From: a virus
Length of the DNA: 21,147 nucleotides
Reading direction: 5' to 3' (one strand)
Virus record (IMG/VR): IMGVR_UViG_3300046517_001480
Coordinates: 1 to 21,147 of that record
Shown here: positions 12,075 to 19,844 of the stretch, one piece after another
Position numbering within the stretch: position 1 is the stretch's first letter
Layout of the letters: every line of letters begins with the position of its first letter
Position numbers and translations under genes: made by a program
Notes under the pieces: model-generated
Database searches by the model: none
What the model was told of the DNA's origin: nothing
Seen by the model: the letters and a program-made list of their open reading frames with translations, nothing else

Positions 12075-12422
12075 ATGGCGAGACGGACAATTATCAGTTT
12101 GGGACCAACGACTTTGCCGCTCAAGCGGCTCGGCTCGATCGGCACCGTGGTGCGGACGCTGGGCGGCACCAACGAGGTGGCACGATCGCTCGGGATCTCG
12201 TCGTCGCATGTGTCGAACTGGCGCAAGCGGGGCAGGATCCCGGCGAAATACTACCTGGTGATCCGCGAGCTCTTAGCCGAGCAAGGCTTCGAGCCGGCGA
12301 CGCGGGTGTTCAATTTTGAAAAGCGGGTGCGGCAAAAGCGGCGGCCGGTGTACTGCGACTTTGACGGCAACAACGTGATCTATGCGGATTTCCGCCGGCG
12401 CAAGGTCCGCCTGGCGGCCTGA
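12075..12422 (+). CDS. YdaS/Cro-like HTH regulator, 115 aa
   Basis: The start is ATG 12075, with GAGGG 5 bases upstream; the open frame extends further but without a ribosome binding site. Residues 22-70 form a helix-turn-helix of the short Cro/YdaS type: RTLGGTNEVARSLGISSSHV then SNWRKRGRIPAKYY. The C-terminal 45 residues are basic (RQKRRPVYCDFDGNN, then FRRRKVRLAA). It is first in the plus-strand cluster, divergent from the late fibre gene, so it is placed to control that junction. It is clearly related to the 78-aa HTH protein at 18419-18655 (shared LGG..-AR..G, S.V.NW, RIP.KYY). Confidence 0.85.
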   Translation: MARRTIISLGPTTLPLKRLGSIGTVVRTLGGTNEVARSLGISSSHVSNWRKRGRIPAKYYLVIRELLAEQGFEPATRVFNFEKRVRQKRRPVYCDFDGNNVIYADFRRRKVRLAA

Positions 12423-15581: not shown

Positions 15582-15849
15582 GGGACGGGACATCGGGACA
15601 TCTCCCCCCTTTCTAAGGGGGGGGAGGAAGTTGTCCCGGTAGAGTCCCAGGGACATGTCCCGGTCATGTCCCGGCTTGTCCCGGTTGTCCCGTTAGCCAC
15701 ACACGGTCCTGCCAAATGCCAATCTTTCCAGCACGTTGCAGCTCAATAACGACCCTCTGAAACGCCTTTTTCTGGCTGTCCCGTTTGATGCCTTCAGCGA
15801 TTGTGCCAGCATAGAAATACGACCTCCAGTCATCTGTCCCGGTTGTCCC
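15582..15849. repeat. Cluster of GGGACA / TGTCCC repeats
   Basis: TGTCCC occurs on the plus strand at 15632, 15656, 15667, 15677, 15686, 15777, 15835 and 15844; GGGACA occurs at 15587, 15595 and 15650. Copies at 15656-15691 are spaced 9-11 bases, and 15650-15661 is a perfect 12-bp palindrome GGGACATGTCCC. The repeats run from the 3' end of the helicase gene into the gap before the HGG gene. Some copies encode the helicase C-terminus GQPGQAGT. Confidence 0.6.
15602..15626 (-). other. G/C hairpin between helicase and HGG gene
   Basis: CTCCCCCC (15602-15609) pairs with GGGGGGAG (15619-15626) across a 9-base loop, giving an 8-bp stem in RNA from either strand. It lies in the gap (15558-15663) after the helicase stop. 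There is no U-run next to it, so it is probably not a terminator. It might set expression of the downstream genes by RNA structure or processing. Confidence 0.4.
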
Positions 15850-16788: not shown

Positions 16789-17662
16789 AGCGATCCCTCC
16801 ACACGTCGGCAGGATCCCAGCCCTCTCTTGTCGGCACGCGCGTCAGCACCGGCACGCCGGCCGCTTTCCATCGCACCATGCAGCTGTGTGCCGCCTTCAA
16901 TCCGGCTGCATCGTGATCGGCCCAGATCACCAGGCGATCGATACCGCCGAGCACATCCAGGCGCGACAGCGCACCGGCCGAGCCGAGCGCCCAGGTCGAA
17001 TAGGGATCCATCGATCGCACCGACAGCGCGCTCTCGAAACCCTCGGCGACATTGAGCTGGCGCCAATCATTGTCGTCATCGCCATCGCTGCCAACCATCA
17101 TCGATGCTTTGCCGACCGGCCCCAGCATCATGGTGCCGTCCTTGCGCGCATCGTCGGTCAGAAAGATCCGCTGCACCGCCTGCATCCCTGGGCGCCCGAG
17201 CGAGCACATCCTGACCACGATCGCAGGCTGCACACGTTTCTCCCGCGGACACGCCGGGTGAAAGCGCACGGTGTGATCGATCTCCTTGGCAACCGACCAG
17301 ATCTCCCTGGCCTCGAGATACTTCTGCGCGATCGTGCCGTGGCACAACATTGCATCGTCAAAGATCCTTCTCGCGCGATCGCGCTGCCGCTGCGCATCCG
17401 TTTCACATGAAACCTTTAGCGCTGTCAGTATCTGTCCGCCTTTGTCTGTGTTGGATGCACGCCCCTCCCACAGCCCGCGCTGCCTGAGCGCGTTGATCAG
17501 ATCAACCTGCTCGCATCCCGCCAGGCAACGCACCTGGACGCTCTCGCGGCCGTCGAAAATGATCAGCGATGGCGAGCTATCCTCATGCGCCACACACTTA
17601 CACTTCCACTGCCGGCCCGACCGCACGCCACCCAACGCCTGCGCGAGTTCAGCAGCGGTCAT
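16775..17662 (-). CDS. Zinc/Toprim DNA primase
   Basis: A 295-aa protein starting at ATG 17662 in ATGA overlap with the upstream gene, with GGAGGG 7 bases upstream; a GTG six codons earlier lacks a binding site. The zinc finger uses C23, H26, C46 and C50 (CVAHEDSSPSL and VRCLAGC), as in phage and DnaG-type primases. The Toprim domain shows the glutamate motif NVAEGFESALS (E208) and the acidic pair LVIWADHDAAG (D249, D251). The middle segment 90-200 is family-specific. It lays RNA primers and works with the RepA-like helicase whose gene follows directly. Confidence 0.93.
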   Translation of the reverse strand: MTAAELAQALGGVRSGRQWKCKCVAHEDSSPSLIIFDGRESVQVRCLAGCEQVDLINALRQRGLWEGRASNTDKGGQILTALKVSCETDAQRQRDRARRIFDDAMLCHGTIAQKYLEAREIWSVAKEIDHTVRFHPACPREKRVQPAIVVRMCSLGRPGMQAVQRIFLTDDARKDGTMMLGPVGKASMMVGSDGDDDNDWRQLNVAEGFESALSVRSMDPYSTWALGSAGALSRLDVLGGIDRLVIWADHDAAGLKAAHSCMVRWKAAGVPVLTRVPTREGWDPADVWRDRCGRQ

Positions 17663-18418: not shown

Positions 18419-18655
18419 TTATGCCGATTTGCGGAAGTCACCGAGGAAACCGAACAGCTCCAGCGGCGCGTAGTAGCCCTTGTCCTCGAGCGCCACCTTG
18501 AGGATGAAGTAGTATTTTGGCGGGATCCGCGCGTGCTTGCCTGGTCGTTTCCAGTTGCACACGCCACTGGCGAGACAGCCGGTCAGCCGTGCCGCCTGCG
18601 CCGGCCCACCCAGCGCCTTGATGATTTCATCGACAGTCCAGACCGGCTGCAGCAT
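18419..18655 (-). CDS. YdaS/Cro-like HTH regulator, 78 aa
   Basis: The start at ATG 18655 is the best available; its ribosome binding site is weak, and the frame is open further upstream but with Cys/Leu-rich sequence unlike protein. Residues 8-60 are an HTH: VDEIIKALGGPAQAARLTG, SGVCNWKRPGKHARIPPKYY, and ILKVALEDKGYY. It is a paralogue of the 115-aa HTH protein at 12075. It is the first gene of the minus replication block, facing the recombination genes, with an array of decamer repeats upstream that could be its operator. It may be a Cro-like switch protein. Confidence 0.82.
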   Translation of the reverse strand: MLQPVWTVDEIIKALGGPAQAARLTGCLASGVCNWKRPGKHARIPPKYYFILKVALEDKGYYAPLELFGFLGDFRKSA

Positions 18656-18742
18656 GGCACTCACGACGGTTGATTTTGTTTTTCGCCGTCGCACACCAGC
18701 AGCCCACGCATCTAGAACAGCGCGCGCAGAAAACGCAAATTT

Positions 18743-18799
18743 CACAGACAGACACAGACAGAGCCAGACAGCGCAACATGTTGCAGACAGGCACAGACA
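18743..18799. repeat. Phased decamer repeats around a 12-bp palindrome
   Basis: CAGACA occurs at 18745, 18755, 18765, 18784 and 18794, so copies are 10, 10, 19 and 10 bases apart, which is close to the DNA helical turn. The first two full units are both CACAGACAGA. The missing fourth unit is replaced by the perfect palindrome GCAACATGTTGC (18773-18784). Iterated direct repeats with an internal palindrome suggest an operator or iteron-like binding array. Confidence 0.7.
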
Positions 18800-18837
18800 A
18801 CGGAAAACAGTTCCAAAAAAAATCACAAAAAATGAGC

Positions 18838-18864
18838 TTGAATTTTCTGAATGCCGGGATTAAT
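18838..18864 (+). promoter_or_regulatory. Weak candidate promoter of the recombination operon
   Basis: TTGAAT (18838-18843) and ATTAAT (18859-18864) are separated by 15 bases, shorter than the usual 17, so this would be a weak or activated promoter. It lies about 175 bases before the exonuclease start and 40 bases after the decamer array. Pattern only. Confidence 0.25.
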
Positions 18865-19040
18865 CTCCCCGACCGTCACGCCACCGTAGACGTGACACAT
18901 GAGCGATCCGGTTGTGCGACGGTTCCCTCATCAAGACTTCGACGGCAACATTTTAGTCGACAACACGCGCGACCCCACTAACGACCAAACCACCAAGCCC
19001 GTTGTGCTGACGAGATCTCAACTCGCCAGGAGGGAATGCC

Positions 19041-19844
19041 ATGTTCAGTGCCGTCGAGCGCGCCGGCTACATCGGCGCCAGCGATATGCCATGGATCATG
19101 GGCGACAAGAAGCCGCCCGAGATCCTGCGCTGGTGGGAATGCAAGGTCGGCCTCAGAGAACAGGATCCGCCGACCTGGGCGATGCGGCTCGGTTCCCTCG
19201 TCGGTGATGCCATCGTCGACGAGTATGAGCGCGCCAACCAGGGCGCCGGCAACCTGATCACCCGGCGCCAGGAAGTGGTTCCCTCGCCGCTCAACGATCG
19301 GTTCCGCTCGACGCTCGACGGTTTCATGGCTTCGCGCAACGCGGTGATCGAGGCCAAGTTTGCCTCTCCCTTCATGAACCGCGACACCCTGTTCAGCTAT
19401 TACTATCCGCAGGTCGCCATGCAGATGCACTGCACCGACGCTGACACCGGCTACCTGGTGATCGCGCAAGGCACCAACGATCCGATCGAGATCGAGTGCG
19501 TGCGCAGCCAGGAGTATGAGGACGAGCTGCTGGTGCGCTGCGCGGCGATGCTGCTCTCGATGGACACCATGTGCCCGCCGGTCGATGTGCCGGCGCCGAT
19601 CGCGGTGCCGCCGGAGAAATGGCGCACCGTCGATCTCGATCGCGACCAGCCCAACTGGGCGGCCGCGCTGACCTACGAACTCGCCACCTATGAGTTCACC
19701 CGCAAGGATGCCGAGACCCATGAACTCGCAGGCAAGGTCGCCAAGGAGCTGGTGCCCGACGACGTCGGCCGCGTGATCGCTCCCGACCACATCATCGCCC
19801 GCAACAAGAAGGGCTCGCTCGCCATCACCCGGAGAACGTCATGA
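19041..19844 (+). CDS. YqaJ-type (lambda-exonuclease-like) recombination exonuclease
   Basis: A 267-aa protein starting at ATG 19041 with AGGAGGG 6 bases upstream. It shows the YqaJ family pattern in order: YIGASDMPWIMG (10-21), an acidic helix LGSLVGDAIVDEYERA (50-65), STLDGFMA (90-97, D93), VIEAKFASP (102-110, E104 and K106), and YYPQVAMQMHC (121-131, Q124). These give a PD-(D/E)XK active site. The enzyme digests one strand of double-stranded DNA ends in the 5' to 3' direction, leaving single-stranded DNA for the annealing protein encoded directly after it (4-base overlap). The C-terminal 60 residues are helical and family-variable. Confidence 0.93.
   Translation: MFSAVERAGYIGASDMPWIMGDKKPPEILRWWECKVGLREQDPPTWAMRLGSLVGDAIVDEYERANQGAGNLITRRQEVVPSPLNDRFRSTLDGFMASRNAVIEAKFASPFMNRDTLFSYYYPQVAMQMHCTDADTGYLVIAQGTNDPIEIECVRSQEYEDELLVRCAAMLLSMDTMCPPVDVPAPIAVPPEKWRTVDLDRDQPNWAAALTYELATYEFTRKDAETHELAGKVAKELVPDDVGRVIAPDHIIARNKKGSLAITRRTS

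Follow-up and report, generated by a model that had tools for sequence, protein, structure and literature searches.

A helically phased decamer array between divergent early operons of a phage, a candidate cooperative operator of the Apl/Cox kind

Recombination directionality factors (RDFs) of the Apl/Cox/Xis type recognise direct repeats with a spacing of one helical turn, located both at attP and at early promoters (PMC7498355). In coliphage 186, attP carries five Apl sites and the region between pR and pL another seven, and Apl requires three operators side by side; Apl itself is a sequence outlier within the RDF family (PMC7498355). RdfS of Mesorhizobium acts both on attP and on its own promoter (PMC11963761). 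For BldC, RdfS and Pukovnik Xis, head-to-tail oligomers have been published in which each protomer takes up one turn of DNA, as have roles in transcription or excision.

Here we analyzed a decamer array in the virus record IMGVR_UViG_3300046517_001480, the whole 21,147-bp stretch of which is referred to as the window. The array resembles the operators of 186 Apl and P2/HP1 Cox in its six-bp operators, which are direct repeats with one-turn spacing and at least three to an array, in the position of its sites at early promoters and (in the close relative G001) at attP, and in its putative link to a small DNA-binding protein of the RDF type. In contrast to those systems, in which the promoters are face-to-face, the promoters here are divergent; the RDF gene of G001 lies beside int and does not lead the early operon; the array has a palindrome within it, and additional arrays occur in the primase gene and behind int; and the word changes between relatives, whereas the 10-bp geometry stays. 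Because the two operons are divergent and back-to-back, we describe the array as working like an Apl/Cox-type system and do not file it as a member. The candidate protein has, as modelled, the winged-helix fold of BldC, RdfS and Pukovnik Xis, but RdfS is without a clear consensus motif, whereas the repeats here are sharp. P22/N15-type Cro operators are comparable in that the neighboring gene encodes a 78-aa protein of Cro fold and the control region holds a 12-bp perfect palindrome; unlike in those operators, the palindrome is single here, and among the relatives its sequence is confined to the window, G001 and G004. A mechanism of the Apl/Cox kind is already known; the new features are that the promoters diverge, that a palindrome lies within the array, that extra arrays are present, and that the geometry is fixed while the word changes.

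Layout of the array and its surroundings

The array lies in the gap between two divergent, back-to-back early operons, as judged by gene calls and by alignment with relatives. The leftward operon comprises the 78-aa HTH gene and genes for a VRR-NUC-like nuclease, a toprim primase and an AAA_25 helicase; the rightward operon comprises genes for a YqaJ/RecE-like exonuclease, an Erf annealing protein and a NinB-like protein. The elements of this region are as follows.

18419–18655, minus strand: gene of the 78-aa Cro-like HTH protein, leading the left (replication) operon
18710–18738, minus strand: left promoter-like element, TTGCGT and CTAGAT separated by 17 bp, conserved in relatives by alignment
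18743–18772, plus strand: array 1a, three decamers (CACAGACAGA, CACAGACAGA, GCCAGACAGC), conserved in G001 and G004
18773–18784, no strand: 12-bp perfect palindrome GCAACATGTTGC, invariant in G001 and G004, candidate operator of a Cro-like dimer
18782–18801, plus strand: array 1b, two decamers (TGCAGACAGG, CACAGACAAC), 1 bp off the phase of array 1a
18838–18866, plus strand: right promoter-like element, TTGAAT and TAATCT separated by 17 bp, the -35 part conserved in aligned relatives
19041–19844, plus strand: gene of the YqaJ/RecE-like exonuclease, leading the right (recombination) operon

The first-pass annotation had reported five CAGACA cores between the replication and recombination operons and beside a Cro-like HTH gene, with two identical units and a palindrome in the place of a missing unit, and all of this was borne out. 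The cores start at 18745, 18755, 18765, 18784 and 18794 (spacing of 10, 10, 19 and 10 bp) within a 57-bp array at 18743–18799; the identical units are the word CACAGACAGA at 18743 and 18753, and GCAACATGTTGC fills the gap. The second decamer block is off phase by 1 bp (19 instead of 20), array 1b overlaps the end of the palindrome, and a sixth CAGACA at 18749 is overlapping and out of register. The early control region holds at least three adjacent direct repeats in tandem, spaced by one helix turn (3 + 2 decamers), as in Apl/Cox-type operators, together with a palindrome that, lying beside a cro-like gene, may be a Cro operator.

The lag-10 self-similarity of the intergenic region was 15.4, whereas none of 2000 dinucleotide shuffles went above 11.4, and CAGACA was found six times there compared with an expected 0.51, which confirmed that the repeat array is real and beyond chance. 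On the scale of the whole 21-kb window, 1/100 shuffles matched the lag-10 score, which was therefore less exceptional. Because this score alone is not decisive over the whole window, the weight is carried by conservation and by cross-genome evidence.

Array 1 begins 4 bp upstream of the -35 box of the left promoter-like element. A strict sigma-70 consensus scan of the region called no promoter, and both promoter calls therefore rest on alignment. An AT-rich stretch (18810–18843), as expected of an iteron-type origin, adjoins the array, and similar stretches occur in relatives. The two divergent leaders each contain one copy of TGCGACGG (18686–18693, minus strand; 18915–18922, plus strand), which is also found in G001, G003, G004 and G006; it resembles a shared leader element and perhaps serves antitermination or control at the RNA level. 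The right leader also contains a hairpin (18874–18896, GTCACG...CGTGAC), the stem letters of which vary while pairing is kept in L005, L008 and L009. A second HTH gene of the Cro/YdaS type (12075–12419), distantly paralogous to that of the 78-aa protein, adjoins the structural genes.

No int, attP or RDF gene was recognised in the 21,147 bp of the window, which stops short of the region that holds the RDF gene and int in G001; the window phage probably has an RDF gene beyond the right end of the fragment. The YqaJ/RecE-like exonuclease gave no match when searched in bacterial genomes and in phage records. As a guess, the host is of Bradyrhizobium type, a label that rests on base composition, on relatives judged to be soil-type, and on one candidate attB. 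A search for attB with the core common to G001 and G002 gave 73 matches, mostly chance. On one Bradyrhizobium contig, a segment in an apparently intergenic position (L227:843–864) matches the attP-like G002 core across 22 bp and is a suggestive candidate attB.

Fixed period and changing word among relatives

Conservation in close relatives, on which the first-pass annotation had staked its proposal, was observed in both G001 (L007, 47 kb) and G004 (L006, 19 kb). Their HTH protein is identical to that of the window, and their array differs from that of the window by three substitutions, all of them outside the AGACA cores (all five unchanged) and outside the palindrome GCAACATGTTGC. Because one CAGACA of the window reads TAGACA in G001, the invariant part between the window and G001 is AGACA. 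The segment 18419–19844 (HTH gene, intergenic region and exonuclease gene) is 93–100% identical to that of G001, whereas Erf and primase are only 57–60% identical; by this comparison the segment is apparently a recently exchanged module.

More distant relatives (HTH 45–70% identical) carry other sequence at the array position, indicating that the array word itself is not conserved. With the primase as bait, 33 loci were collected, and the homologous intergenic regions were scanned, free of any motif, for the best 10-bp phased array. Many of the regions had such an array, with the following words among them.

L092: TGAACACTGC
L094: AACAGTTACG
L091: CACTCGTTGG
L095: TTCACATGCG
L090: AGTCCTCTCC-type
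L074: TATCAGCCGG

When periods of 6 to 16 bp were compared as a control, enrichment was observed at 10 bp (mean z 3.9), with z>3 in 11 of the 18 intergenic regions, whereas periods of 9 and 11 bp exceeded this level in none of the 18; a weaker signal was seen at 15 bp. A common core word across the phages (e.g., 'GA') was not significant (p=0.07 or more). The same-place 10-bp period and the lack of a significant common core therefore indicate a site of fixed helical geometry and changing sequence. In G010 two strong arrays are kept and the Cro-like gene is absent, and in G010, G012 and G013 an AT-rich centre lies between inverted arrays. G002 and G005 possess an int-linked RDF gene, but no significant array at the early position. 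Separately, phased CAGACA triplets across the collection were almost all unrelated microsatellites, and one 27/28 match fell in an unrelated coding gene; these were set aside.

Motif copies at att, int and the primase gene

A matrix was trained solely on the nine G001 decamers flanking an inverted-repeat (attP-like) core upstream of int. Outside the training site it scored 32.8 behind int, 31.8 at the homolog of the window array and 31.1 inside the primase gene, followed by 21.0 at the helicase 3' end and 13 or less for the remainder, which was partly the second half of array 1. The matrix scores for the window were 30.8 for array 1, 27.6 for an array in the primase gene and 16.7 for the second half of array 1, with noise at 7.2. 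Such a margin was reached by 0/300 matrices from random training sites. The primase-gene site comprises two elements.

17400–17413, no strand: parS-like palindrome GTTTCACATGAAAC, adjoining array 2 in a variable linker of the primase gene
17419–17448, minus strand: array 2, three degenerate decamers of the array 1 motif, second best by the matrix in the window and inverted relative to array 1

The early motif is shared with attP in G001, where the decamers lie on both sides of the att core with 10-bp spacing. G014 uses its own, unrelated word in common at the early region and the int region, and in both phages the sole recognised RDF-like HTH_17 gene adjoins int. Unlike the two-sided motif of G001, known RDF sites are usually on one arm of att. 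The word of G008 occurs in the early region, in the primase gene beside a parS palindrome, directly behind an HTH_17 gene, and a few hundred bases behind int. In G005 an arm-like word is common to attP and a post-int site, and the early array is absent. The early-promoter word was not found at the att/int region of G009–G013, though an integrase gene is present.

The parS-like form GTTTCA[CT][GA]TGAAAC is kept in the window, G001, G002, G004, G005, G007 and G008, and G003 differs at one end base; the exact parS core GTTTCACGTGAAAC occurs in G005, G007 and G008. The codons at this site look fixed at the DNA level, and use by a host ParB is possible. At the helicase 3' end of the window, TGTCCCGG repeats were observed (15637–15696), and the equivalent place in G001 and G002 has 10-bp TGTCCGG repeats. 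The TGTCC(C)GG repeats of the window were rejected as an array for their spacing of 11/10/9.

Candidate binders and competing explanations

An RDF-type gene was present in the array-bearing relatives whose contigs were long enough to judge. In G009–G013 an HTH_17 excisionase-family gene lies directly beside the array as the first gene of the exonuclease (YqaJ) operon, whereas in G001 it is beside int instead; HTH_17 genes are also near int in G002 and G005, and a second one is near int in G009–G011. The HTH_17 match in G014 was weak (E 3e-5). As G009–G013 are relatives of one another, their placement of the RDF gene beside the array may reflect one or two evolutionary events. The G001 protein (70 aa) matched the profile TIGR01764 'excise', and its predicted structure resembled BldC-DNA, Tn916 Xis, Pukovnik Xis, RdfS and a phage P2 DNA-binding protein in Foldseek (TM about 0.6), with weak E-values owing to its small size. 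For the 78-aa protein the fold is that of Cro and resembles Xfaso1, N15 and P22 Cro. Cro-fold proteins act as dimers on palindromes.

The first-pass claim of cooperative binding by a regulator is well supported. With moderate confidence, we favor the reading of the array as a cooperative operator of the Apl/Cox/Xis kind, bound by a small excisionase-family RDF. Points against this reading are the lack of a recognised int, attP or RDF gene in the window, the int-linked RDF genes of G002 and G005 in phages with no significant early array, the two-sided motif at the att core of G001, the relatedness of G009–G013, the weak HTH_17 match of G014, and the separation of the RDF from the Cro-like protein in G010 only. 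The decamers were assigned to an RDF-type protein because the motif is shared between att and the array, because of the Apl-type precedent and the HTH_17 neighbors, and because G010 keeps its arrays without a Cro-like gene. In line with this, the early motif recurs at att or int in G001 and G014, where the sole recognised RDF-like HTH_17 gene is int-linked, but was not found there in G009–G013, where such a gene adjoins the array. We infer the identity of the binder, filament formation and the direction of regulation as follows. A small winged-helix RDF would bind each core of about 6 bp (AGACA/TGTCT), one protomer per helical turn and head-to-tail, and the protomers would build a short filament lying 4 bp upstream of the left promoter, which would serve the cro-like gene, primase and helicase. 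The same filament would lie upstream of the right promoter (exonuclease and Erf), and the divergent early operons would thereby be adjusted. In the G001 lineage the same RDF would also bind at attP beside int, and excision would therefore be coupled to early transcription.

The first-pass annotation had also suggested that the array may be the operator of the 78-aa HTH protein, which in this case would bind the decamers as monomers or as a chain and autoregulate its own operon. This is possible but unlikely for the decamers. The gene adjoins the array and is conserved in nearly all array-bearing phages, HTH and array form one near-identical block in the window and G001, the similarity of the whole protein tracks that of the motif (r=0.36, p=0.009), and Apl, too, is an outlier in its family (PMC7498355). 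However, the protein has a Cro fold suited to palindromes, covariation of the motif with the recognition helix was not significant (p=0.07; 0.15 after correction for phylogeny), and G010, which alone separates the RDF from the Cro-like protein, has arrays without the gene. The 78-aa protein appears to be a better candidate for the palindrome, for which the earlier suggestion holds as a possible target. More tentatively, then, the central palindrome GCAACATGTTGC is probably a separate operator, perhaps that of the Cro-like protein, and as it is embedded in the array the two binders may compete or cooperate.

It is improbable that the decamers are integrase arm-type sites bound by the N-terminal arm-binding domain of a tyrosine recombinase. 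Such sites would agree with the decamers flanking the att core on both sides in G001 and with the motif common to the arms and the post-int site in G005, and they would explain attP, but not the arrays distant from int: the G001 homolog of array 1 is >4 kb from int and thus outside the core-flanking part of attP, and the early word is missing from the int region of G009–G013 despite their integrase gene.

Decamer iterons have a precedent of the P4-like type, and an iteron-type origin, in which arrays flanking an AT-rich stretch are bound by an initiator, had been the second suggestion for this site. The adjoining replication operon and the AT-rich centres between inverted arrays in three relatives are in line with it. 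The proposed GC-skew analysis, however, placed the maximum of the cumulative curve near 14.5–15 kb and revealed no switch at 18.7 kb, no recognised initiator gene adjoins the array, and an origin does not predict motif copies at attP, behind int and before terminators; this suggestion is unsupported, and we regard it as very improbable. A chance or slippage-born simple repeat without function can be dismissed almost entirely, since slippage, although CAGACA repeats are near-microsatellite and the collection scan gave many unrelated ones, cannot explain a family-wide 10-bp period with unrelated words, conserved cores and matching copies at att.

The Apl/Cox-type reading can be extended to a phage-wide network, in which one filament-forming protein would read a private 10-bp code at early promoters, at the primase gene/parS-like site, at attP and behind int, would loop or compact the genome, and would couple early transcription, replication and excision. 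The code would be rewritten between relatives with its geometry kept, as in a specificity (immunity-like) system. We consider this extension speculative and rather unlikely.

The relatives form a natural series in which the operator word varies but the spacing is kept strictly at 10 bp in one place of the genome, so that the site choice and specificity change of DNA-lining directionality factors become directly testable. Such operators may also be searched for without a known sequence, by a period that stays the same at the same place in the genome.
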